This document shows, in pieces, positions 6,058-62,188 of a stretch of DNA of 64,000 bases. The first letter of the stretch is position 1. Every line of letters begins with the position of its first letter. The stretch comes from Chryseobacterium sp. ISL-6 (GTDB taxonomy: Bacteria; Bacteroidota; Bacteroidia; Flavobacteriales; Weeksellaceae). A program made the position numbers and the translations under genes. Below the pieces are notes generated by a model, which was not told the origin of the DNA, ran no database searches, and saw only the letters and a list, made by a program, of their open reading frames with translations. The stretch spans positions 186,001 to 250,000 of the forward strand of contig NZ_JAGGPT010000002.1 of the NCBI RefSeq assembly GCF_018613715.1. Direction: 5' to 3'.

Positions 6058-6863
6058 GCTGGCGCGAGCGTCACGCTCGTTGCTCATTCTCATATTACAA
6101 ATTTAAATCTATTTTCAAAATTTCCTGATCATCATTATAGGAATTTCTTGCACTACTATATTTCCATGCATAAGGCTCTGTTACAAAACCACGTTCAATA
6201 GGATTCTGATGGGTGTAATTTAATTTTTGTTCAAAGACCTTTAAAGACCATATTTCAATAGGTTTGTTATGCTGTTGCCACAACTGAAATCTTTCAATAT
6301 TTGAATTTCTTTTACCTGCTAATCTAAACATCCAAAGAAGCCACTCCTTTCTGCTTTCACGGTTGTTTTCCTGAATAGCTTCCAACATTTTTCGGGAAGT
6401 AAATCCCTTGAAATCTCTGATCAGTTCCGATGGATTATCATCATTGGCTCTAAAAATTAAGTGTACATGACTTGGCATAATACAATATCCAAAAATAATC
6501 ATCCCTTTGTTTTTCCTACAAAAATCTAATGAATTGATAATAACATCAAAGTATTCCATTCTTGTAAAAGCATCTATCCAAAATACGGTAGCAAAACTTA
6601 TAAAATATGCTCCATCTTTCTCTCCAAACTTATATTTGCGACTCATGAATTAAATGTAATAAAAATGACACTTATTAAAAATGAGAAGAATAATCATCAA
6701 AGCAAAAATGGTCATTACATTTTTTTAATGTTCCTTAATTCTAAAGAAATTGTATTTGTCTAATTCTAAAAACATAGTTAATAAAAATCCGAGAAAGTAT
6801 ACCTTTCCGCATTTATTTATAGATTAATCTTTATTCGGACACGAGCGTGACGCTCGCGCCAGC
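6058..6863. mobile_element. REP-associated tyrosine transposase element (REPtron)
   Basis: About 806 bases bounded by exact 23-bp inverted repeats at 6058-6080 and 6841-6863. Each repeat contains its own palindrome (GAGCGT-C-ACGCTC). Inside is one transposase gene. This layout, a Y1 transposase flanked by REP hairpins, is characteristic of RAYT elements. The element lies inside an RHS toxin gene and has relatives at 3986-4034 (left end) and 5211-5445 (right end). Confidence 0.85.
6095..6646 (-). CDS. REP-associated tyrosine transposase (IS200-like, RAYT)
   Basis: A 183-aa HUH/Y1 single-strand transposase. 'MPSHVHLIF' carries the paired histidines that hold the metal, and 'LNYTHQNPIERGF' carries the predicted catalytic tyrosine; 'WKYSSARNSY' is the usual C-terminal family motif. 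The length is normal for flavobacterial members, and ATG 6646 is well placed. These enzymes nick at REP hairpins and are usually domesticated or slowly mobile. The gene is intact and sits between inverted REP copies that are its likely substrates. Confidence 0.9.
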   Translation of the reverse strand: MSRKYKFGEKDGAYFISFATVFWIDAFTRMEYFDVIINSLDFCRKNKGMIIFGYCIMPSHVHLIFRANDDNPSELIRDFKGFTSRKMLEAIQENNRESRKEWLLWMFRLAGKRNSNIERFQLWQQHNKPIEIWSLKVFEQKLNYTHQNPIERGFVTEPYAWKYSSARNSYNDDQEILKIDLNL

Positions 6864-7947: not shown

Positions 7948-8172
7948 TTACTTTAATTTAAAATCAAATAGTTCCTGTGGATGCACATCTAGTCCTTTGG
8001 CTAACTCTTGAATAGTAGAGATTCTAAGATCTGTTTCCCCTTTTTCTATTTTACTAATATTACTATGATCTACATCACATTTTTGAGCCAACTCTCTATA
8101 ACTCAAATTCAGCTTTTTTCTAAATATCTCAACTCTTTTACCAAATGCTATTCTAAATTCTAATTTATTCAT
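7948..8172 (-). CDS. XRE-family helix-turn-helix regulator
   Basis: A 74-aa single-domain DNA-binding protein: 'FGKRVEIFRKKLNLSYRELA' (helices 1-2), 'HSNISKIEKGETDLRISTIQ' (recognition helix onward), 'LAKGLDVHPQELFDF'. ATG 8172 gives the normal XRE start; the frame is open to 8211 but those residues are not conserved in the family. It is divergent from the sigma/dCas12f operon and shares its ~400-base upstream region, so it could regulate that operon. That link is positional inference. Confidence 0.8.
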   Translation of the reverse strand: MNKLEFRIAFGKRVEIFRKKLNLSYRELAQKCDVDHSNISKIEKGETDLRISTIQELAKGLDVHPQELFDFKLK

Positions 8173-8258: not shown

Positions 8259-8291
8259 TTTGCTAAATAAGTTACAATAAAGGTAACTTTG
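8259..8291 (+). promoter_or_regulatory. Bacteroidota sigma-A promoter upstream of the sigma/dCas12f operon
   Basis: TTTG (8259-8262), a 21-base spacer and TAACTTTG (8284-8291) match the -33/-7 consensus TTTG...TAnnTTTG. Transcription would start near 8297 and run through the structured region 8335-8439 towards the sigma gene. Confidence 0.6.
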
Positions 8292-8334
8292 CAATACTTC
8301 AAAAATAATAATCGAAGCTATTGCTTAGATTCTC

Positions 8335-8439
8335 GACTAGAAAACTGGTAATTTTATGTGTACGAGAAGATAAGTAAATTAGCTCACGACCGCGGCGTGG
8401 GCTCTCTTATCGTACACGGGTATACCAGTACCTCTAGTC
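8335..8439 (+). ncRNA. Structured RNA element upstream of the sigma factor gene
   Basis: Four nested stems can form. GACTAGA (8335-8341) pairs with TCTAGTC (8433-8439). ACTGGTA (8344-8350) pairs with TACCAGT (8423-8429). GTGTACG (8358-8364) pairs with CGTACAC (8411-8417), followed by GATAAG with CTTATC. The terminal stem is AGCTCACG (8381-8388) with CGTGGGCT (8396-8403), one G-U. The order and register are consistent with one long hairpin. It contains CGGCGTGGGCTC (8393-8404), also found at 10562-10573. It could be a leader RNA, an independent small RNA (a T-rich stretch follows at 8458-8468), a guide scaffold, or a member of a dispersed flavobacterial structured-RNA family such as Flavo-1; I cannot tell which. 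Confidence 0.65.
8393..8404 (+). promoter_or_regulatory. Candidate dCas12f target site (matches downstream guide)
   Basis: CGGCGTGGGCTC matches 10562-10573 exactly, in the same orientation, and is preceded by G (8392). A 5'-G target-adjacent motif is what I recall being reported for sigma-linked dCas12f systems. The site points towards the sigma gene, 165 bases ahead of its start. Target status is a hypothesis. Confidence 0.4.
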
Positions 8440-8568
8440 AATAAGTTGAGTTCCACGCTTTTTCTTTTGTGCAAAATTTAAAGAATAGGGGTATGAATAA
8501 TAAGTAGAATTCTTCTTATGGATCTAAGCAGTTCCTTCCAGCAATAATTTAGCTAAAATACGCTGCTT

Positions 8569-9384
8569 ATGAAAAGAACAGACTCTTTACCCCGGAAGTT
8601 GAGCAATCTTCAGTTGTACGAACTGCTGAAAAAAGGCAATCCGACCGCTCTGGAACACATTCATCTGCGTTATAAAAGACTTCTTTTCTGGGTTGGATGG
8701 CAGGTGCTTAAGGATGATTTTGTAGTGGACACTATTGTTCAGGATACATTCCTTAAATTATGGCTACACCGTGACACCATTGAAACGCCTAATCATATTA
8801 CTGGCTTTTTACGGTTCGTTATGAAAAGAGATTGTATATCGTATGTCACTGCGCCAAAGAATAAATTCAACCGTCTAGTTGCTTCTCTTGAAAGTTTTGA
8901 GAATTACCAGGATTATCTTGTGGATTATGATCCCCTGAATGATAAAGAGAATCTCCTCAGTCACGAATCCGATCAAAAAAAATTCGATGAAGTCACAAAA
9001 GTTTTACCTGTTCTGCACCCCAAAAGAAAACACCTGATTGAACTTTGCCTTGAATATGGCTTTCAGTACAAACCAATCGCAGAAGCAATGGGAAGCAGCG
9101 TGACAGGCATAAGCAATGAGGTGAGCAGAGCCATAAATGACCTTCGGAAAATTCTTAATAGAACCTCTTTTGAACAGCCATATGAAAAAGCTTCCGATAA
9201 TAAAGAACAGAGAGAAAAACTCAGTAGTCAACAACTTGAGATCCTGAAAAGAAGGTTTGATCAGAAATCCTCTTTCAAGGTTATTGCCCAAGAACTCAAA
9301 TTACCTGAAAAGGAGGTTCATCGGGAATTTCTGTATGCATATCAATATCTACAAAATCAAAACACTTCTGAAATACCTCTTTGA
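8569..9384 (+). CDS. ECF-type sigma factor linked to dCas12f
   Basis: This 271-aa RNA polymerase sigma factor belongs to the extracytoplasmic-function group. Region 2 spans about residues 15-92 ('NPTALEHIHLRYKRLLFW', 'VQDTFLKLWLHR'). Region 4 spans about 143-195, with the helix-turn-helix 'YKPIAEAMGSSVTGISNEVS'. A further ~60 C-terminal residues ('SSQQLEILKRRFDQKSSFKV', 'IAQELKLPEKEVHREF') look like a second region-4-type HTH. This makes it ~80 residues longer than typical ECF factors (~180-200 aa). There is no anti-sigma gene nearby. Its stop is one base from the dCas12f start, so the two are co-translated. It likely acts with the dCas12f to recruit RNA polymerase to guide-matched DNA. Confidence 0.88.
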   Translation: MKRTDSLPRKLSNLQLYELLKKGNPTALEHIHLRYKRLLFWVGWQVLKDDFVVDTIVQDTFLKLWLHRDTIETPNHITGFLRFVMKRDCISYVTAPKNKFNRLVASLESFENYQDYLVDYDPLNDKENLLSHESDQKKFDEVTKVLPVLHPKRKHLIELCLEYGFQYKPIAEAMGSSVTGISNEVSRAINDLRKILNRTSFEQPYEKASDNKEQREKLSSQQLEILKRRFDQKSSFKVIAQELKLPEKEVHREFLYAYQYLQNQNTSEIPL

Positions 9385-9385
9385 A

Positions 9386-10480
9386 ATGGAAAAATCCACG
9401 ATTACACTTACCCGAAAAATTCAGTTGCTGATCGATCTCCCTGCAAATGAAAAAAACGAGATGTGGGAAAAACTCTACCGGTATCAGAACCGCTGTTTCC
9501 GGGCGGCTAATTTAATTGCTTCCCATCTGTATGTTCAGGAAATGATCAAGGATTTCTTTTACTTCACAGAAGAAATCCAATACAAGCTGGCAGATGTAAA
9601 CAAAGATGAAATGGGAATGTTCACACGTTCGAAAACAAGCACAACTGCACGCATGGTCTATGACCGTTTCAAAGGCGAGATCCCTACCGATATTCTGGGA
9701 AGCCTAAATAACACGATTCAATCAACCTTTTCTAAAAACAAAGCCGACTACTGGCAGGGGCTAAGATCATTGAGAAACTTTAAAAAAGACATCCCAATTC
9801 CACTTCCAGTCAAATGCATCAGTAAAATGAGATATGATACCGAAAAGAAAGGGTTTTGTTTCAACATGTTTGCTATTCCAGTTAAAACGTATTTAGGGAA
9901 AGACTTCTCTGATAAGCGCTTAATAATGGAACGCCTCTTAAGAGAAGAGATAAAACTTTGCACATCGCAGATCCAGCTGAAAGCCGGGAAAATCTATTGG
10001 CTTGCAGTATTTGAATTTGAAAAAGAAGAACACATTTTAAAACCCGAAATCATTGCAGAAGCTTCCCTGTCTCTGGAACATCCTATCGTAGTAAAAGCCA
10101 ACAATGTGAGAATGAATATAGGCTCGAAGGAGGAGTTTTTATACCGCAGGCTTGCAATTCAGGCAAGTCAAAAAAGGATTCAATCCGGCATCGCCTTTGC
10201 CCGTTCAGGAAATGGAGTCAAACGCAAACAGAAAGCATTATTTAAAACAGAGAATCTGGAAAGCAGATATGTAAGTCATAGGCTTCATTTGTATAGCCGG
10301 AAACTTATAGATTTCTGCATCCAGCAACAGGCGGGCACACTTATTCTTAAAAATCAGGAAGACAAGATAGGAATTGCAAAAGAACAGGAATTTGTGCTTC
10401 GCAACTGGAGTTATTATGAATTACAGACCAAAATAAAATACAAAGCAGAAAAGGCAGGTATCGAATTAATTATTGGATAA
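9386..10480 (+). CDS. Nuclease-dead, truncated Cas12f/TnpB-like RNA-guided protein
   Basis: A 364-aa protein. ATG 9386 follows the sigma stop by one base; earlier in-frame codons lie inside the sigma gene and were rejected. The C-terminal third carries Cas12f/TnpB landmarks in order: 'IGSKEEFLYRRLAIQ' (~245-259), 'SRKLIDFCIQQQAGTLIL' (~304-321), 'FVLRNWSYYELQTKIKYKAE' (~336-355). The RuvC-I motif that normally reads GIDLG is 'IVVKANNV' (~234-241), without the Asp. The RuvC-II Glu position reads K (LILKNQ, ~319-324). The chain stops at residue 364, before the Cys4 zinc ribbon and RuvC-III Asp. It should bind guide RNA and target DNA without cleaving. Pairing with an ECF sigma gene matches reported sigma-dCas12f systems for RNA-guided transcription. 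No transposon ends or tnpA are associated. Confidence 0.85.
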   Translation: MEKSTITLTRKIQLLIDLPANEKNEMWEKLYRYQNRCFRAANLIASHLYVQEMIKDFFYFTEEIQYKLADVNKDEMGMFTRSKTSTTARMVYDRFKGEIPTDILGSLNNTIQSTFSKNKADYWQGLRSLRNFKKDIPIPLPVKCISKMRYDTEKKGFCFNMFAIPVKTYLGKDFSDKRLIMERLLREEIKLCTSQIQLKAGKIYWLAVFEFEKEEHILKPEIIAEASLSLEHPIVVKANNVRMNIGSKEEFLYRRLAIQASQKRIQSGIAFARSGNGVKRKQKALFKTENLESRYVSHRLHLYSRKLIDFCIQQQAGTLILKNQEDKIGIAKEQEFVLRNWSYYELQTKIKYKAEKAGIELIIG

Positions 10481-10581
10481 ATGAAAAAAAATAACGAGGG
10501 TGCTTGTACACCCATAGGGTGAGGTTATGAACACTCACTAAATACTTAGTAGTATATACAACGGCGTGGGCTCCTTTTTTT
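10481..10581 (+). ncRNA. Candidate guide RNA of the dCas12f system
   Basis: The region directly after the dCas12f stop folds into three hairpins: GGGTG/CACCC (10498-10513), GTGAG/CTCAC (10519-10538) and ATACT/AGTAT (10542-10555). ATAAC (10491-10495) can also pair with GTTAT (10524-10528). It then reads TATACAA and CGGCGTGGGCTCC followed by seven T. Cas12f and TnpB guides place the scaffold 5' and the guide 3', often behind a CAAC-like end, so the guide would begin at about 10562. The first 12 guide bases match 8393-8404 upstream of the sigma gene. The RNA boundaries are inferred. Confidence 0.45.
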
Positions 10582-10587
10582 ACCTAT

Positions 10588-10956
10588 ATGGAACAGAAAA
10601 TATATCAGAAAAGAAACGTAAAACGCTTTAGAGAAAGAAGCTTTAGCTCTCAACTTGGAAGATTGAAATAGAAGAAAATTTCTTTGCTTGAACAAAAAGA
10701 AACTAATGAAGATCCTTTGTTAAAAAAGATCTCTAAACTATTGAAAATTCCGGTAGAAGCTTTTCAGAACTTTAATAGAGAGCAGCCTGTGAATGTTATT
10801 GCTAATACTTTTCACTATGGCTCAATAGCACACGCTACTGCTGAAAACATACAATGCACATTCAATCCAAGAGATAAAATGGTTGAGTTAAATGAAAGGC
10901 TTAAAGAAAAAGATAATATAATAACAACGCTTGAACAATTAATTGGAAAGAAATAA
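10588..10956 (+). pseudogene. Decayed XRE regulator
   Basis: From ATG 10588 the frame reads 'MEQKIYQKRNVKRFRE', the start of a common Chryseobacterium XRE protein. Part of the HTH is then deleted. The continuation 'EALALNLED' hits an in-frame TGA where the family has Trp, and after a frameshift 'KKISLLEQKETNEDPLLKKI' to 'TTLEQLIGKK' is intact to 10956. At least three lesions make it non-functional. It lies directly behind the candidate guide RNA. Confidence 0.85.
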
Positions 10957-11888: not shown

Positions 11889-12836
11889 TTAATTCGCTGT
11901 CTGGTACCTGTTTGTCTCCTCAAACCAATTTAGATAGCCACTAATCCATAAACCCTGACCTTCAAGGAACTTTTTTACAACCGGTGTATATACCCCAAAA
12001 TCCGGAATATCATTGTACAGGACCATAAACTCTTCCATGCGGGAGTTGTACATTTGCACAGCTTCATCAAAGGCATCTTCGATTGAACAACTTCGTTCGT
12101 TTTGAATCACGAGTACCAGATTCAGGCCTTCATCATCCTGCATTTCCTTTTCTAATGAGATTAAATCATTACTCCAGGCAAATAGATCTCCCGCCAATAT
12201 CCTGGCTTGCTGAACAAAGGGATGTACTACAATGTAATTGGGCAAGATACCTGTCACCAGTTCTATCTTATCATTTACAGTAGCCATGGCTACATTCTTC
12301 CTACGAATCGGTATATACTCCTTAATGGAAGGATAGTTAATGTCTTTACGGTAGCTGATAGATGAGTCTATCTCTATACCTTCAAGATATTGAGATATAT
12401 CATATACATATCTTTCCACCCACTCTTTTGTCGCAATAGCTTCAAATTCCCTCATAAAAATGGAAAATTGATGAAGGATCGGATTTTCTCCATGTTCAGG
12501 AATTGCACCTCGTGCAATTTCCATCGTACGATGGGTCACTTTAGACAATTCCTCTTTCTTGAATGGAGCATAATAATCATCTTGAGCAATGCCCCAAAGC
12601 AAAGCTCTGGTAAAAGAAGTTAGTAAGGAAAGGGAAGCATCCGGCCAGGAATGTGCAGCCCAGGACGCACCGTCAAGTCTTCTCATCATTTTAATGAAAG
12701 GTTGAGGAAGAGAACTGTATTGCTCATCGATCCATTTATCGCTTTTTTCTCTAAGTAATTCTTTATGTGAGCTTTCACGTGGCGGAAATGGATTCAGGAG
12801 TATCGATTTCAGGTTTTTAGTTATTGTTTTATTCAT
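11889..12836 (-). CDS. Class I terpene synthase (sesquiterpene-type cyclase)
   Basis: A 315-aa soluble bacterial terpenoid cyclase that would ionise and cyclise an isoprenyl diphosphate using Mg2+. Metal-binding motifs: aspartate-rich 'QDDYYAPF' (D86-D87) and the NSE triad 'NDLISLEKE' (N223, S227, E231). 'IPIRRKN' supplies the arginine ~46 residues before the NSE triad that senses diphosphate. 'NRY' near the end (R310-Y311) is the conserved RY pair. Length is typical. It shares strand with a methyltransferase 178 bases upstream, suggesting a two-gene pathway to a methylated terpene. The product cannot be predicted. Confidence 0.92.
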   Translation of the reverse strand: MNKTITKNLKSILLNPFPPRESSHKELLREKSDKWIDEQYSSLPQPFIKMMRRLDGASWAAHSWPDASLSLLTSFTRALLWGIAQDDYYAPFKKEELSKVTHRTMEIARGAIPEHGENPILHQFSIFMREFEAIATKEWVERYVYDISQYLEGIEIDSSISYRKDINYPSIKEYIPIRRKNVAMATVNDKIELVTGILPNYIVVHPFVQQARILAGDLFAWSNDLISLEKEMQDDEGLNLVLVIQNERSCSIEDAFDEAVQMYNSRMEEFMVLYNDIPDFGVYTPVVKKFLEGQGLWISGYLNWFEETNRYQTAN

Positions 12837-13014
12837 TGGTTAGATTTGTTTTTTAATATATCGAGGGTTATAATAATACTCTTACTTAGTCTCTAAAGAG
12901 CTCTTTATACTACCGTTTTAGCATTTCCTCTATGGTAATAGACTATTCTGATCAGCCAAATAAGTTGGTCTTGAGCCTATTGCTTTTTCTAACAGTTATT
13001 AGATAAGGAAACAA

Positions 13015-13860
13015 CTACAGCTTAAAAACAAGCATTTCCACCAACCCTTCCCCTTGCTGATGAAATAATAAATTATTTCCATTCAGTTGAAATTCGACAT
13101 CTTTCATTGCAACTACTTGGGTTTCAATAACGCCTAAATTAGTCAATACCTCCATCATTTCTTCCCTGAAGTACACCCTCACCTTATCCTTTATAAACTT
13201 TTCAAATAGGCCTATAACAGTATTATGAAGAGATAGGCCGTGTGCAGGCACATCAACAGGATCAAGGCAATATTCCATGATGACCTTGTTGTACTTACCT
13301 TTAGATTCAAATTGCTGCATCAGTTTAACAAATTCATGATTATGGATATAGTGAACAACTCCTTCAAGAACAACAATAGTAGGTTTTTCAGGCTGAAATC
13401 CCTTTCGTAGCAATGTCTCCATAAGGAGATTAGTATCTGCTAAATTACATTGAATAAAATGAGGTTGATTAGTAGTGGGAATCAAATCCGAATAAATTAC
13501 TGCTTTGGTAAGGATAGTGTCACTTCCATCCACTTCGAAAATATCACTGATTCTATCAGCATGGTGTTCGAGTAGAAAAATAGATAGTGGATCAAGTCCA
13601 GCCCCTAGAATCAATATCTGTCGTTTGGGATTTGAAAGTAGTTGTTCTGAAAGTGCTTTCCTTATATAGTTTTTCCGTAAGCAAATTATATCTCTAATAG
13701 CAGTGGTGGCTGTAGTCATCTCCTGACTGGCTGCCATTACCCCACTGAAATCGATATGTTCAAGATATTTTTTTTCCAAATCAGAGGTATACACTGAATT
13801 CGACTGTTGTAGTACCAAAGCAGAAGTTAACGGAACATTAGTTTTAGTATAAGTATTCAT
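13015..13860 (-). CDS. SAM-dependent methyltransferase, LCMT/PPM1-like family
   Basis: A 281-aa class I methyltransferase. Motif I is 'ILILGAGLDPLSIFLL' and the acidic residue contacting SAM lies in 'FEVDGSD'; 'PTIVVLEGVVHYIH' is the LCMT-family motif around strand 4. ATG 13860 (MNTYTKTN) is preferred; the frame opens further upstream to 13938 with unlikely sequence. It precedes the terpene synthase on the same strand. In this setting it could methylate a prenyl diphosphate or the cyclised product, but other substrates, such as carboxyl groups, are possible. Confidence 0.8.
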   Translation of the reverse strand: MNTYTKTNVPLTSALVLQQSNSVYTSDLEKKYLEHIDFSGVMAASQEMTTATTAIRDIICLRKNYIRKALSEQLLSNPKRQILILGAGLDPLSIFLLEHHADRISDIFEVDGSDTILTKAVIYSDLIPTTNQPHFIQCNLADTNLLMETLLRKGFQPEKPTIVVLEGVVHYIHNHEFVKLMQQFESKGKYNKVIMEYCLDPVDVPAHGLSLHNTVIGLFEKFIKDKVRVYFREEMMEVLTNLGVIETQVVAMKDVEFQLNGNNLLFHQQGEGLVEMLVFKL

Positions 13861-14015
13861 AGAAAGATAAGTTTTAAGATGACAATTAAGATAGGTGGAA
13901 TATGTTCCTAATAAATCATGATGTAGTTTTAAAAACATCTTCCGTATACTGTATTATTCAGGTAAAACAGTTTGATGTACTTAGGATCAATGTATTTCTT
14001 TACTACACTTTAGTG

Positions 14016-18493: not shown

Positions 18494-18853
18494 TTATTTT
18501 TTGCTTAAAATAATATTTTCTTTTAACATTTTAAGTCTTTTACTTCCAATAATCTTAAGCTTATAATCTCTTTGATTCATATATCCTCTAGATAACATAT
18601 TAGTGACTAATTTTTCTTTATTACATCTTAAGTATAGAGTATCTTGAAAAATGTTCCACTTCCCTATACATTTTGGAGAAGCATCCTGCGATTTGTATGA
18701 CATACTAAAACTATCTTTTTTTATTAAAAGATTATATTCTTTTGAGAATCCATACGAAACTCCTTTATATTGATAATTACCATATACATCTTTCTTTGCA
18801 ATACAAGAACTTATTATGAATAATAAACAATAATATATTTTTAATTTTTTCAT
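18494..18853 (-). CDS. Lipoprotein, probable immunity partner of the RHS metallopeptidase toxin
   Basis: A 119-aa protein with an N-terminal signal and lipobox (FIISSC). The mature domain is beta-rich ('GNYQYKGVSYGFSKEYNLLI', 'GKWNIFQDTLYLRC'), the fold style of small lipocalin-like lipoproteins. Its ATG overlaps the TAA of the RHS gene (TAATG), so it is translated with the toxin. A lipoprotein immunity partner implies the toxin acts in the periplasm or envelope. The role is inferred from position. Confidence 0.65.
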   Translation of the reverse strand: MKKLKIYYCLLFIISSCIAKKDVYGNYQYKGVSYGFSKEYNLLIKKDSFSMSYKSQDASPKCIGKWNIFQDTLYLRCNKEKLVTNMLSRGYMNQRDYKLKIIGSKRLKMLKENIILSKK

Positions 18854-21800
18854 TACTTGGTTTTTAAATTTGGAAAATCATTTTTAATAGTATAAGTGCT
18901 AGGTAAGTCAGTCAGACCAGCTGCGTTATGAGGATAGGCATTGATCAAATCTGTCTTAGTAGAATTTATATTTACTGGTGCTGCAGCTGTATTAGATCTC
19001 CCTCCAGGATTATACAAAGTACCTCCATCCAATCCTTGTACCCATCCAGAAGTAATATCAGTAGCTGAACTTACAGTAGTTCCTGACGTAGAGGGTAAGC
19101 CTGAGACTGACGAAGCATCATAAAAATATTGTGCTTTATACGCCGAAACTTCGTCTCCTATATCTTGGGCTACTACAGCACCTGTAGTTCCATCAAAGGC
19201 TATATCTCCAGATTCAAATTGCGCTCCATGGGTCATTTCGTGTACAAAATTAGAATCAGTTCCAAATGCAATAACAATATTACCAGTATTAGGGTCATAT
19301 GTTGTACCACCAATTCCAGTAGAACCAATATTATTTAAACTATATACCTGCGTACTTTGTTCTAAAGTATCCATATTATTAAGGGTTGTACTCAAACTTT
19401 GAACCTTATCTGATAGTGCTCCATTAGCAATAAGATTAGATGCTACAGCCGATGCATATTGAACTTGAGCTGCCTGTTTTTGTCTATTCCATTCCGCTTG
19501 ACTTCCTGGTTCTATTTGTTCGGGAGCTTTACCATCAGGATCAATAAACCTCAAAGGATTATTAAATGCATAATTGTATGGACTATGACGACGCATTTGT
19601 TCTGCCATTGGATCCACGACACCCCATCTTCCAATATCCGCCATATACATTCTAGCTCCATAATCATACATACCAGTCTCTTGCAGCTCCTTGCCATTGT
19701 ACTTGTAGTTCTTATAAGCACTAGGGCTAAAGAAAGAATTTCCGGTCTTTAGATGATTCATCCCAAATGGATAGTAATCATTAGAATCTGTAATCTCAAG
19801 AGCTCCTGCGCTGTTTCTTCCGAAACTTATCCTTACATTTCCTAAATGATCTTTATACTGGTAAATATACTGATCTTTTGCATAATCATAAAATCCTTCT
19901 GCTGTAGGAAAAAACTGAAGCTCAGGATTCTTTGATTCAAAACCAACCATAGCACTTACTGGTTCTACAGAATAAGCCTCCATTTCCAAAGCTCTTGAGG
20001 TTTCAAGATTATCTACCATCATCTCGGTGCTTCCACCGCCACTACCTCCACCTGAACTGGTTTGATTCACATACTGGAATCCGTCAAGATAATCTGTAAC
20101 TACTTTTGACCATGTTGTCCCTGCAACTCCTGAAGAAGAGGTATAGTTTTCTTTTCTCAATTTGGTTCCGTCAGCACTGTATTTAGTGGAAATTTCGGCA
20201 ATTTGTGTCCCTTTATCTATTGCCAGTTGATAAGGTAAATTTAAATGGTTGTATGCAATGCCTGAAATAGATTTATCAGCCATCGTTTGCATATTACCAT
20301 TTAGATCATAAGTGATCGGAAGACCAGCAGTACCCTCATAACCGGTACTGTTACCACTGTTGTCTTTAATTGATATTGCCTGATTTCCTAGATAAGTATA
20401 TTCTAAATCATCAATTTTTGTGGCAATGGTTCCTTGCAATACAGAGGTTCTGTAAAGATTGGTAATGTTTCCATTCAAATCATAGGTTAAAGATTCTGTA
20501 TTTTCTTTACTGCTAGGGTTATTTGGATTTTGATAATATCCTGCCGTTAGTCGGTTTAGCTTATCATAAACATAACCATATCTTTTGGGTGTAAGTGACG
20601 GATTAGCTCCAATTGCTTCCACGGCTCTCCAATCTACTTCGGCAATGTTTCCATTGTATTTAGCCTCAATATTTTTACCGGGAAACAATACCGAATCAGG
20701 GTTGGTAACCCCTTCTTTCTGGTTGTATTTAATTTTATAAGAAAACAGTTTCCCTTCCAGATTGGCTACCGACATCTGGTTTTTATTGATATCGGTCAAC
20801 CAGCCTCTTATGTTGTAGCTATAATCTATACTTTGAAGATTGTTTCCTACTTTTTTATTGCTTAATTGCGAAAGTTCATTGTAGGTATTATCAGTTAATA
20901 ATTCCTCTGGATTATTGTCTACCTGATGGAAATGTTGTTTTAATCTGTTTTGAGTATCATAAGCAAAGCGTTCCTTTACATTGACAGCTGTCTCTGCCAG
21001 TTTTCTACGATGAATAGTATTTGATCTTTTAACAGCTCCAGCAAAGTCCATTTCAGTTTCAGTCTGGGTGTAGCCACCTAAATGGTTAATAGAATATATT
21101 CCAATAACCTTTCCTTTTTTATCATAATAGCTATAGTTCTTTGTCCAGTTATCATCTTCAATATTCTTCACATAAGAAGCAGTAGGAAGGCTTTTGGTGG
21201 TCACTTTACTACCTGTAATATCCGTAAGGAGCTTTTGTGCGAAAGTATTGAGAGCAGCAGGAGTACCCGGAGGATAGGTATCATAATAATTAACACTAAG
21301 AATCTGAATGACATTACTTAATGGAGATGCTAGTGTAGAATAATAAACAGGCATTCCATTAAGGGTAAATGCTGTTGTGCTTCGTGTTTCAAATAAATTG
21401 GCATTGCCATCTACCGCTGTCTGTAGGCTTTGTCTGCTTCCAGCATTATTGATAAGGCCAGTATAAACAACTCTTCCAAACTGGTCATATTTGGTGAATA
21501 ACCATTGGCTTTTACCTGCAAGGTTAGCATCCTTGGTCATAACAAGTTGGTCCGCCTTATTATATACCATAAATTCCCATCCTTTTCCAGGGATCTTTTT
21601 TTCTACCAACCTGTTTTTACCATCGTAGCGGTATTGGTAACAAAAATCAGTTAACACAGCACCTGAAATAACTGTTCCAGCCGTTAATCCTTTAATTGTA
21701 AAAGAAGCTTTTGGTGGAATAACGAATGTCAACTGGCCATATTCATTATAAATATAATAGGTATCCGCATTATCAGTTGCACTGATGACTTTTCTAACCA

Positions 21801-21861
21801 AGACAGTCTGCCCTTTTCCATTTTTAAATTCTATGGTTTCGTTACCATCTTCATCCTTCAC
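18853..21861 (-). CDS. RHS-repeat protein with metallopeptidase-like toxin tip, 5'-truncated
   Basis: A 1002-aa RHS/YD-repeat shell protein. YD-type repeats fill most of the chain; the RHS-associated core ('ARMYMADIGRWGVVDP', 'SPYNYAFNNPLRFIDPDG') lies near residues 735-785. The variable tip follows and carries 'FVHEMTHGAQF' near residue 875, a zinc-protease HExxH motif. Flavobacterial relatives start with a signal peptide and a DUF6443-type N-terminal region of some 250-300 residues. Here the frame opens at 21888 with 'LQLYKNSVKDEDGNETIEF', mid-protein, with no start codon except an internal GTG (21861). The gene is probably a silent tip cassette or a pseudogene despite its long open frame. 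Confidence 0.85.
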   Translation of the reverse strand: MKDEDGNETIEFKNGKGQTVLVRKVISATDNADTYYIYNEYGQLTFVIPPKASFTIKGLTAGTVISGAVLTDFCYQYRYDGKNRLVEKKIPGKGWEFMVYNKADQLVMTKDANLAGKSQWLFTKYDQFGRVVYTGLINNAGSRQSLQTAVDGNANLFETRSTTAFTLNGMPVYYSTLASPLSNVIQILSVNYYDTYPPGTPAALNTFAQKLLTDITGSKVTTKSLPTASYVKNIEDDNWTKNYSYYDKKGKVIGIYSINHLGGYTQTETEMDFAGAVKRSNTIHRRKLAETAVNVKERFAYDTQNRLKQHFHQVDNNPEELLTDNTYNELSQLSNKKVGNNLQSIDYSYNIRGWLTDINKNQMSVANLEGKLFSYKIKYNQKEGVTNPDSVLFPGKNIEAKYNGNIAEVDWRAVEAIGANPSLTPKRYGYVYDKLNRLTAGYYQNPNNPSSKENTESLTYDLNGNITNLYRTSVLQGTIATKIDDLEYTYLGNQAISIKDNSGNSTGYEGTAGLPITYDLNGNMQTMADKSISGIAYNHLNLPYQLAIDKGTQIAEISTKYSADGTKLRKENYTSSSGVAGTTWSKVVTDYLDGFQYVNQTSSGGGSGGGSTEMMVDNLETSRALEMEAYSVEPVSAMVGFESKNPELQFFPTAEGFYDYAKDQYIYQYKDHLGNVRISFGRNSAGALEITDSNDYYPFGMNHLKTGNSFFSPSAYKNYKYNGKELQETGMYDYGARMYMADIGRWGVVDPMAEQMRRHSPYNYAFNNPLRFIDPDGKAPEQIEPGSQAEWNRQKQAAQVQYASAVASNLIANGALSDKVQSLSTTLNNMDTLEQSTQVYSLNNIGSTGIGGTTYDPNTGNIVIAFGTDSNFVHEMTHGAQFESGDIAFDGTTGAVVAQDIGDEVSAYKAQYFYDASSVSGLPSTSGTTVSSATDITSGWVQGLDGGTLYNPGGRSNTAAAPVNINSTKTDLINAYPHNAAGLTDLPSTYTIKNDFPNLKTK

Positions 21862-53422: not shown

Positions 53423-53692
53423 TTATTTTCTTAAACCTAGTTCAGCAATAATTGCTCTATATCTTGCGATATCTTTATTTTTAAGGTAATCTAATAAACT
53501 TTTTCTTTTACCTACTAATTTCACCAAAGATCTTTCCGTTGCAAAATCGTGACGGTTAGCCTTTAAATGCTGAGATAAGTGATTGATTCTGAAAGTGAAA
53601 AGAGCTACTTGTCCTTCAGCACTTCCTGTGTCTTGTGCAGATTTCCCGTGTTTTGAGAAAATTTCCTGCTTTTTTTCTGTTGTTAAGTACAT
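53423..53692 (-). CDS. rpsO: 30S ribosomal protein S15
   Basis: An 89-aa primary 16S-binding protein of the small subunit. 'TGSAEGQVALFTFRINHLSQ', 'HLKANRHDFATERSLVKLVG' and 'KRKSLLDYLKNKDIARYRAI' are family signatures. It is monocistronic here; in many bacteria rpsO precedes pnp, but two genes separate them in this genome. Confidence 0.97.
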   Translation of the reverse strand: MYLTTEKKQEIFSKHGKSAQDTGSAEGQVALFTFRINHLSQHLKANRHDFATERSLVKLVGKRKSLLDYLKNKDIARYRAIIAELGLRK

Positions 53693-53844
53693 TCCAATAT
53701 TGTTTAATGATTATTATGTAACGGGTGCAAAAGTACAACTATTTTTTAAGTCAGCAAAACATTATTGATTTCATATATCAAAAATGATAGAAAAAAATGT
53801 TAAAAATTTCTTAATAAATTTTATGCCATCCCGTTAAAAGACAG

Positions 53845-60513: not shown

Positions 60514-62188
60514 AGAAAAGTTCATAAAAAGTTTTTAAATTTTCAGAAAAGTTTCTATATTTGCACACCAATTTAAAACAAGCCCAGTTGGCGGAATTGG
60601 TAGACGCGCTAGACTCAAACTCTAGTATCGAAAGATGTACCAGTTCGATTCTGGTACTGGGTACAAGACCGGAAAGAGGTGATAATTCACTTTCTTTTCG
60701 GTTTTTTTTAGTTCGTAACTCATTGTTAACCTGATAGATATAGGACAGTAAAACGTTGGCTCGAATAGTTCGATAATGATTTTCAAAAAATTCCAATTTT
60801 TCAGGGAATATCGAACTAATAATCTTACGTTTTAAGTCAATATCCCCATCAGAATAGACTTTAGCAAGATTTACAACGTTCGATAATGCATGCTCAAGGA
60901 GTTTCGGAAAATCTATTTTCTTTTTATCTTTTACTTTGGTCAATTTGCTTTCTAACTTTTCAATTTGGTCTTTGCAATCAGTCTTAATTTCGAAGTACTC
61001 ATCGTCATCAATGACATCTTCCAACAGTTTATTTCGTGCCGACTTTAACCTGTTATTCAATCCATCTATTTCCAGTAATATCTTTTTTCTTTCATGTTGA
61101 GGATTATTGATAAACTTCTCAAAGTTCTGTTTCAAGACTCTACTCAAATATTTTTTAATGGGCTCTCTCATTTCTAAAGCTTGAAGTATTTCCAAAAATT
61201 TATTGTTGATAATCTCTGCCTTATACCGATATCCGCATGGTGACTGACAGTGATAGTAATAATATTTCTTCGAGTGTCCTGTAGATGCACTCCCTGTTAT
61301 CAAATGACCACAGTCTGGACAGATAAGGAATCCTCTCAAAGGAAGATTATCGTCAGATAAAACTTTAACATTGGGTCTGGATAGATTTGCATTGCCATCC
61401 ATTATATTTTGTACTCTTTCGAATAATTCTTCACTTATCAAAGGTTCGTGAATACTAGAAACAAAATGTGCCTCCTCTTCATTAAATTGTTCTACATGTA
61501 TTTTTCCGCAATATGCAGGATTTCGTAAACCAGCAAGAAAAGCACTGACTTTTACAGTTTTTCCTTCCCGTTTGTTCATCATATCCATAATTTGGCTCGC
61601 AGAAAAAACACCTTTCGCCATCTCGTTAAATGCCCATTTCATATTGGAAGCTTCCGGTTCTTTTGGAGCTACATACTTCTTTCCATTTTCCGTGATCTTA
61701 TTTGCATATCCATAAGGTGCTCTACCCATCAATCTTCCTTCTTTCTTGGCACGTCTCATTCCATAGTAAGTATTTAAGGCACGCCTGTCGTTTTCAACTT
61801 CTGGCGCAGCAAGATATATTGCCAGCATCATCTTGTTTTCAGGAATTGAAAGGTCCAACGGTTGTTCAATGGCTTGCAGTTCAACATTAAGCTTTTTAAG
61901 AATATTGATCATTTGGTAGGCATCACCAGCATTTCTGCTAAAACGATCCCATTTTGTGAATAATACTAAATTTGTTTTTGAACTCTTTTTCTTAAGCATA
62001 TCAAGTAATTTCATCCATTCAGGTCGATTGAAAGTCTTGGCCGAAAAATCCTCATAGATGATTTGACCAACAATCATATTGTTATTGTCACAATAGCGTC
62101 TCAATCTCTCTTCCTGGTCTCTCTGGGAATATCCTTTATCCGCCTGCTCATCAGTTGACACACGAATATATAAATCGGCTTTTTTCAT
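60413..62188 (-). CDS. Large serine recombinase, C-terminus read through tRNA-Leu
   Basis: A 591-aa integrase-type serine recombinase. The resolvase domain (~1-150) begins 'LYIRVSTDEQ' with catalytic Ser11; the recombinase domain (~165-265) and a zinc ribbon ('CPDCGHLITG' ... 'CQSPCGYRY', ~289-325) follow, then a coiled coil. The last ~80 residues, from about residue 509, are antisense to tRNA-Leu and the MBL gene ('LVPSTRIELVHLSILEFES'), so the gene is longer here than in the circular form of its element. It probably inserted the element into tRNA-Leu. A small 53-aa gene and a Fic gene follow on the same strand upstream. Confidence 0.9.
   Translation of the reverse strand: MKKADLYIRVSTDEQADKGYSQRDQEERLRRYCDNNNMIVGQIIYEDFSAKTFNRPEWMKLLDMLKKKSSKTNLVLFTKWDRFSRNAGDAYQMINILKKLNVELQAIEQPLDLSIPENKMMLAIYLAAPEVENDRRALNTYYGMRRAKKEGRLMGRAPYGYANKITENGKKYVAPKEPEASNMKWAFNEMAKGVFSASQIMDMMNKREGKTVKVSAFLAGLRNPAYCGKIHVEQFNEEEAHFVSSIHEPLISEELFERVQNIMDGNANLSRPNVKVLSDDNLPLRGFLICPDCGHLITGSASTGHSKKYYYYHCQSPCGYRYKAEIINNKFLEILQALEMREPIKKYLSRVLKQNFEKFINNPQHERKKILLEIDGLNNRLKSARNKLLEDVIDDDEYFEIKTDCKDQIEKLESKLTKVKDKKKIDFPKLLEHALSNVVNLAKVYSDGDIDLKRKIISSIFPEKLEFFENHYRTIRANVLLSYIYQVNNELRTKKNRKESELSPLSGLVPSTRIELVHLSILEFESSASTNSANWACFKLVCKYRNFSENLKTFYELFFKILFPNRRKQGAFRVEVVYLQHHANLGDGLYE
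60582..60663 (+). tRNA. tRNA-Leu (CAA)
   Basis: Acceptor GCCCAGT pairs with ACTGGGT (first pair G-U). The anticodon loop CTCAAAC is closed by CTAGA/TCTAG and gives anticodon CAA. A variable arm and T-arm (GTACCAGTTCGATTCTGGTAC) follow; CCA is not encoded. The 3' part is the probable attachment site of the recombinase element on its right. Confidence 0.95.

Follow-up and report, generated by a model that had tools for sequence, protein, structure and literature searches.

The DNA analysed here, called the window below, is a stretch of 64,000 nucleotides from Chryseobacterium sp. ISL-6. An open reading frame for an ECF sigma factor (8569-9384) is followed in it, after a gap of one base, by an open reading frame for a Cas12f/TnpB-like protein (9386-10480). 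These two genes and the predicted elements on either side of them were assigned as follows.

7948-8172, minus strand: divergent XRE/HTH regulator gene (Pfam HTH_3, E 9.2e-15).
8284-8291, plus strand: TAACTTTG, a putative TAnnTTTG promoter box for the leader RNA, assigned by sequence.
8325-8462, plus strand: predicted structured leader RNA upstream of the sigma gene (RNA model R1, E 1.9e-43).
8394-8411, plus strand: candidate target, a G flank at 8394 with GCGTGGGCTCTCTTATC, where GGCGTGGGCTC is identical to the guide.
8448-8463, plus strand: GAGTTCCACGC and a T-run, complementary to 8394-8404; pseudoknot or terminator-like.
8569-9384, plus strand: ECF sigma factor (sigmaE), 271 aa (NCBIfam, Pfam and RpoE chain 9n9q_C).
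9386-10480, plus strand: nuclease-dead Cas12f (dCas12f), 364 aa, with S227 and K322 at the RuvC-I and RuvC-II places.
10496-10561, plus strand: predicted guide-RNA scaffold of three hairpins, ending in ATACAA (alignment A2).
10562-10581, plus strand: predicted guide CGGCGTGGGCTCC with a T-run, following the scaffold end.

Both gene products were compared with domain models and with solved protein chains. The sigma factor matched the NCBIfam sigma70-ECF model (E 1.5e-18), Pfam sigma regions 2 and 4 were both above their cut-offs, and residues 17-263 matched the RpoE chain 9n9q_C with E 1.6e-79. The match of the 364-aa protein to NCBIfam guided_TnpB was weak (E 3.2e-16; 59.6 bits against a cut-off of 100), while its residues 1-364 aligned to residues 1-365 of the nuclease-deactivated Cas12f 9n9c with E 4e-160, and 13 other solved Cas12f/TnpB chains were matched at E 1.2e-38 to 1.5e-7. 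We take 9n9c and 9n9q to be the dCas12f and the RpoE of the dCas12f-sigmaE system of Flagellimonas origin. The protein thus falls inside Cas12f/TnpB, and the gene order given by the first-pass annotation, an ECF sigma gene and one base later a 364-aa Cas12f/TnpB-like gene, agrees with both reading frames and their domain matches.

The catalytic residues are lost. According to the first-pass annotation the RuvC-I Asp was missing at IVVKANNV; the loss was confirmed and the position was not, since the Asp in VDLG of 9nzo aligned to S227 of EASLSLE, about 10 residues before IVVKANNV. The RuvC-II Glu had been described as replaced by Lys, and indeed K322 faces the Glu of 9nzo. Nine aligned relatives have S or F and K, L or M at these two places. 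Among the 120 homologues listed out of 780 found, none carries Asp at the first RuvC place, none has a CxxC within the last 120 residues, and 116 are 364 or 381 aa long. The protein ends, as noted earlier, before the zinc ribbon and RuvC-III, which lie in the extra C-terminal part of Cas12f nuclease chains. The 365-aa chain 9n9c has the same C-terminal end, so that the short C-terminus is the normal form of the family, and the earlier description of the effector as strongly truncated does not mark anything special. No tnpA gene was found adjacent to the pair, in line with the earlier reading, and a REP-associated tyrosine transposase 2 kb upstream, at 6095-6646 on the minus strand (NCBIfam REP_Tyr_transpos, E 1.7e-23), is a footnote to it, not being adjacent. 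With no adjacent Y1 transposase and with the RuvC residues lost, the locus is not a TnpB transposon, as had been stated.

A guide-RNA gene is predicted to be encoded with the pair, directly downstream of it. The fold of 10490-10561 had a z of -2.26. A scan of named genomes gave 49 dCas12f loci, of which 48 (L061, a fragment, was omitted) were used together with four copies from the window's own genome, comprising in total 52 loci. The scaffold was found directly downstream of dcas12f in 50 of them, as 54 copies: one in each of 48 loci and three in each of the remaining two, L020 and L036. Outside the 50, L015 carries a variant scaffold and L032 the first part only. The sequence following the scaffold hardly varies: it reads CGGCGTGGG(C/T)T(C/T), followed by a T-run. 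GCGTG was found within 3 nt of the scaffold end in 49 of the 54 copies; of the five exceptions, L020 and L036 account for two guides each and L055 for one. The three-copy array of L020 includes a piece of the dCas12f tail, for which reason we read it as a decaying duplication. Guides in Weeksellaceae are short, with 10-11 exact letters before the T-run, which may be merely a terminator. The Chryseobacterium guide has one extra G after ACAAC compared with other groups. Homology between the window copy and two of the other own-genome copies stops at 10580-10581, and with the third it continues to 10814. An orphan guide-RNA remnant, ATACAACGGCGTGGGTTTTTT, was also recorded at C21:128227 on the minus strand (L102), on a contig for which the own-genome search listed no dCas12f match.

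Upstream of the sigma gene lies the predicted leader RNA of about 140 nt. Model R1 was built from 23 copies, the window leader among them, with L147 excluded as too different, and their alignment gave three nested helices and two pseudoknots. The proportion of paired cells was 97.3%, against 33.7-43.6% when the alignment was slid, a comparison favoured by the structure being drawn from the same sequences. Pairs changed on both sides numbered 13, compared with 4.9 in shuffles, and none of 500 shuffles reached 13. Compensatory pairs occur in P1, in P2 and in the second pseudoknot, and the complementarity of 8448-8463 to 8394-8404 consists of the covarying pairs of helix 5; the support for the first pseudoknot is one C-G to U-A change in three copies. 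In stability, leader folds exceeded shuffles by 4.0 to 5.3 standard deviations. They showed an extra hairpin that uses the inner strand of the second pseudoknot, so that the two would exclude each other. A search of the leader against Rfam gave no match (weak matches below gathering lie elsewhere and were taken as chance), and a literature search gave no title describing such an element. We regard the leader as a new candidate RNA family. A possible remote relative is a leader-like hairpin in L147 (G073), which contains GGCGTGGGCTTTCTTATT, has a distant tail and lies before a different gene.

The leader is more widespread than the gene pair. A regex found it in 36 of the 52 dCas12f loci, and inspection by eye added five (L022, L023, L025, L028 and L055). 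Of 173 genomes of the window's genus, 158 had a match to the covariance model under stricter filters, and 45 rows of the same genus had a dCas12f match, broken copies included. As most leader-bearing genomes of the genus are without the pair, the first role of the leader is independent of dCas12f. Five covariance matches were obtained in the own genome, three in cassettes and two on C22, the second of these weak (E 4e-14). In other genomes the leader precedes SusC-type TonB receptors by about 430 nt, or it stands before a short family without Pfam match or a thioredoxin-like protein. A recurrent family of 170-190 aa was seen downstream of leaders (L161:2006-2569, plus strand; L145:40-564, minus strand), and the two members scanned had no Pfam match. 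The Leeuwenhoekiella genome of L055 has a second leader upstream of another sigma gene (L273).

In addition, 60 leaders were fetched from the top of the score list, a consensus-biased sample; the genomes of 20 had a dCas12f match and those of 40 had none. GGCGTGGGCTC was exact in 18 of the former and 32 of the latter; L141, which the leader regex of this step did not match, stands outside its counts. The box TAnnTTTG, which we take to be the Bacteroidota-type promoter consensus, ends 46-48 nt before GAAAACTGG in all 60, compared with 1/60 in one downstream control stretch. All 60 also had a divergent ORF of at least 60 aa starting 150-300 nt upstream of the leader, several being HTH-like by eye. 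As a separate observation, the divergent ORFs beside very similar leaders (L209-L268) begin with many visibly different sequences, as if the gene had been exchanged and the leader retained.

There were two observations on the guide in the own genome. Firstly, GGCGTGGGCTC occurs exactly at five places, two guide genes and three cassettes, in the latter about 990 nt upstream of dcas12f; beyond guide genes, exact matches occur only in the leaders of three cassettes out of four. Secondly, the stronger C22 leader, which precedes a TonB receptor, reads GGCATGAGCCC at the target place and differs from the guide at 3 positions. In sequence the guide is the same as the inner strand of the leader, which pairs in the apical hairpin or, alternatively, with the 3' tail. 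In the set of 49 guides, 47-49 could pair at each of positions 1-10 of the leader 17-mer, counting rU-dG wobbles as pairs, and mean identity was 12.8 of 17 at the cognate site versus 10.1 at the best other site of leader L142. Differences between guide and leader at positions 8 and 10 of these guides were C to T in 36 of 37 cases, a change that leaves an rU-dG pair in place. Covariation of the guide with its own leader, judged by eye, failed as a test, as guides do not track leader changes: CGTGAGC in the leader stands against CGTGGG in the guide in L029, L033, L037, L054, L058 and L059, and altered leaders were also found in L016, L017, L022, L023, L025 and L028.

Places outside the leaders were also considered as targets and rejected. 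GCGTGGGYTY occurs at 14 places in the own genome, of which seven belong to the cassettes (four guides, three leaders), one is the orphan remnant and six lie inside ORFs. For the extra guides of L020 and L036, a pattern covering three of the four odd guides (GAGCGCCTTTC of L036 was omitted) gave 20 places in their two genomes; three of these were guide genes, most others lay in ORFs and none was leader-like.

Outside the window's genus the guides differ, and several of them also match a leader. When up to 3 mismatches are allowed, the longer Mesonia guide, GCGTGGGTTCTCTTATCTAT, occurs at two places in 3.3 Mb, its own guide gene and one further site; the reversed control gave none. At the non-self site 2 of 20 positions differ, one of them wobble-compatible; the site lies in the leader upstream of a SusC/TonB plug protein and has a 5' flank of G. 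The Leeuwenhoekiella guide of L052 matched only itself within 3 mismatches. A target for the first L055 guide was sought and rejected, the sole other site being 3 mismatches off, inside an ORF and not convincing. In g10, a further genus of the family, 13 dCas12f loci were read. Eight had a scaffold and in the other five none was found; guides fitting the leader occurred in four of the 13 (L281, L282, L285 and L287), and in L283, L284, L286 and L288 the scaffold was present with guides that do not fit. The fitting guides are of the type GCGTGGGTTCACTTA or GCGTGGGCTCACTTT and of the type (A/G)GCTCACTTATCGTT or near it, the registers being 5 nt apart. When the fitting guides were compared with seven g10 leaders on the same strand (L282 and L285, which have two guides, were each represented by one of them), the best place was the same segment, always with a 5'-G and with 11-13 of 15 letters identical; leader L296 gave 12 and 13 of 15 for the first guide type. 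Guide-leader pairs from the same g10 genome agreed in 11 to 13 of 15 letters, and the best value of a g10 guide, 14 of 15, was reached with a leader of the window's own genome, not with one from g10. In five of the 13 loci the leader lies 1.9-2.9 kb upstream of the sigma gene. The 5'-G flank is present at the Mesonia site and for the fitting guides of 4 of the 13 g10 loci, while the Chryseobacterium register is off by one nt: because of the extra G, the 5'-G rule fits the Chryseobacterium guide only with a scaffold one nt longer.

The sigma-dCas12f pair is multicopy, patchy in distribution and often near mobilisation genes. The own genome has four dCas12f copies, on C18 (the window), C20, C19 and C15, with protein identities of 100, 95, 95 and 87%, all of them reading frames without stops and with a sigma gene beside each. 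A dCas12f match was found in 76 of 320 genomes of the family, with up to five matched places per genome, some of them broken, and several of the family matches carry internal stops. The 49 scanned loci span Chryseobacterium, Epilithonimonas, Kaistella, Elizabethkingia, Soonwooa, Cloacibacterium, Moheibacter, Leeuwenhoekiella, Mesonia and some unclassified assemblies. A sigma gene stands beside dCas12f in 51 of the 52 loci. The exception is L052, whose sequence begins 30 bases ahead of dcas12f; the sigma frame of L048 is split. The homologous block usually covers about 1140 nt ahead of the dcas12f start and 1195 nt beyond it, and begins at about -850 where the leader is absent.

Near the pair, a toprim-type protein was found downstream in 19 of the 52 loci, and a relaxase with a mobilisation protein in seven. 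Pfam searches of sampled neighbours gave MobA/VirD2 relaxase, NikA-like and Toprim_2 domains at L045 and a DUF5906/VapE-like domain at L051; a neighbour at L030 is a serine-recombinase-type protein which also matched AMP-binding domains. Assignment of cluster 3 as a MobV relaxase was dropped, since Pfam gave no confirmation. Within 6-7 kb on either side of the window copy there were no recurrent mobilisation-type neighbour clusters. Plasmid and phage collections held no close relative, giving distant TnpB-like matches below 30% identity only, so the evidence for a mobile context comes from islands in genome contigs; one database homologue (P0020) is named as plasmid-borne. Other features of the window were also recorded. 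A broken HTH-like gene, identified by eye, follows the guide RNA at 10590-10956 on the plus strand; a related stretch occupies the same place in the C20 copy (L012) and is absent from the C19 and C15 copies. At 11889-13938 on the minus strand a terpene synthase (Pfam, E 2.7e-32) lies beside an LCM-type methyltransferase, possibly a small biosynthetic locus. A 1002-aa ORF at 18853-21861 (minus strand) is RHS-repeat-like by eye, and Rfam gathering thresholds were reached by an S15 leader RNA (RF03161) at 53690-53735 on the minus strand and by a tRNA at 60582-60663 on the plus strand.

At the level of sequence, the locus is made up of two genes, lost catalytic residues, a conserved scaffold, a covarying leader and a guide-leader match. 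The suggestion of the first-pass annotation that the pair is a sigma-dCas12f system gains support from the near-full-length chain matches, the conserved scaffold and the conserved candidate target. Our main reading, to which we give a probability of about three in four, is that of a sigmaE-dCas12f operon whose own predicted guide likely directs a predicted sigmaE-dCas12f-RNA polymerase complex to the 5'-G-flanked leader site and would thereby start the operon and, in relatives, SusC/TonB genes. It is unlikely that the dCas12f-guide complex mainly blocks the leader promoter with a minor role for sigma, as TldR does. The guide site is downstream of the leader's own promoter box, where a bound complex would stand in the path of the polymerase, and TldR relatives repress according to the available text of PMC13418256; however, a sigma gene so regularly beside dCas12f, and matching the sigma chain solved with a dCas12f relative, argues against blocking as the main function. 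Pairing of the guide end with the leader RNA instead of DNA, as a complement to the 3' GAGUUCCACGC that breaks the terminator-like pairing, seems very improbable. The guide and the inner strand are identical and the guide could therefore replace that strand, but the longer guides extend through CTCTTATCT in Mesonia or CTCACTTATCGTT in g10, matching leader DNA with no partner in the 3' tail by inspection, and outside the window's genus every best site has G as its 5' flank. We also give very little credence to the view that the T-run-flanked GGCGTGGGCTC belongs to the scaffold, or is an element end picked up from a copy of the leader, with the pair being a decaying selfish cassette without specific target: multiple, patchy and partly broken copies and a nearly invariant guide region would suit it, but the frames of all four own copies are free of stops and the differing guides of other groups still match the leader.

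Under the reading of a guide-directed sigma factor, the following steps can be proposed. The leader RNA would normally be made from its own TAnnTTTG promoter, and pairing of the inner GGCGUGGGCUC with the 3' GAGUUCCACGC could terminate it at its T-run. At the 5'-G-flanked site the leader DNA would be opened by the dCas12f-guide complex, which would also bring sigma and polymerase; transcription would start a fixed distance downstream of the target, and the RNA-guided transcript would read through into the operon or the receptor gene, since a transcript begun past the target lacks the inner strand needed for the terminator-like pairing. Dcas12f-sigmaE relatives reportedly follow a 5'-G rule, with the polymerase starting a fixed distance downstream of the target. 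By analogy with them, we infer loading of RNA by dCas12f, recruitment of sigma and such a fixed start in the window system. In this genome positive self-control is likely, because the exact non-guide matches are confined to three cassette leaders.

A wider proposal is put forward tentatively, at somewhat less than even odds: a mobile RNA-guided sigma factor may use a leader common to receptor genes, its short guide reading the switching strand of the double-pseudoknot leader, so that initiation past the attenuator would bypass the RNA switch on its own operon and on SusC/TonB receptors at once. Natural RNA-guided activation of transcription is a very recent idea, and the leader target class, if true, would say what RNA-guided sigma systems are for. 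The guide, target, leader and receptor named here form a ready test bed. Beyond the gene pair, the analysis adds the guide scaffold, the guide-matching leader and the multicopy, patchy distribution; novelty of the target class is provisional.

Among known systems, dCas12f-sigmaE shares with the window pair the gene arrangement, the lengths (364/365 and 271/261 aa), a near-full-length match, the lost RuvC residues and the same C-terminal end. Compared with that system, known here by its solved chains, the window pair has a short guide ending in a T-run and four near-identical copies, its candidate target is a structured leader shared with the operon, and its loci are often near mobilisation genes. 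The available portions of PMC12857756 and PMC12250444 contain nothing bearing on the subject. CRISPR-Cas12f nucleases (9nzo, 9nzr, 8hr5 and others) belong to the same sequence family (E 1e-38 to 1e-7), but their chains of 415-539 aa extend past the end of the 364-aa protein. CRISPR-Cas12f immunity entails a repeat-spacer array and adaptation genes; of the 50 loci with a scaffold, 48 have a single copy and two have three. In IS200/IS605 elements, TnpB has an active RuvC and is accompanied by TnpA and by an omega RNA scaffold directly downstream of its gene. The window system is like these in that its guide scaffold immediately follows the gene and sits close to the edge of the homologous block, and unlike them in having no adjacent TnpA, lost catalytic residues and a guide inside the conserved block.

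TldR is a nuclease-dead TnpB that acts without a sigma factor, and in the loci studied here a sigma gene is present in 51 of 52. The available text of PMC13418256 describes TldRs as nuclease-dead TnpB-like repressors with an adjoining guide gene, one clade of which is carried by prophages and aimed at a host surface gene, flagellin. The window system likewise combines a nuclease-dead TnpB/Cas12 homologue with an adjacent guide gene. TldR represses, whereas the window operon includes a sigma gene and activation is expected; the term "sigma factor" is absent from the main text of PMC13418256. With its proposed receptor targets, the window system parallels the phage TldR that acts on host flagellin, but it is likely an activator, and its loci are often near mobilisation genes.
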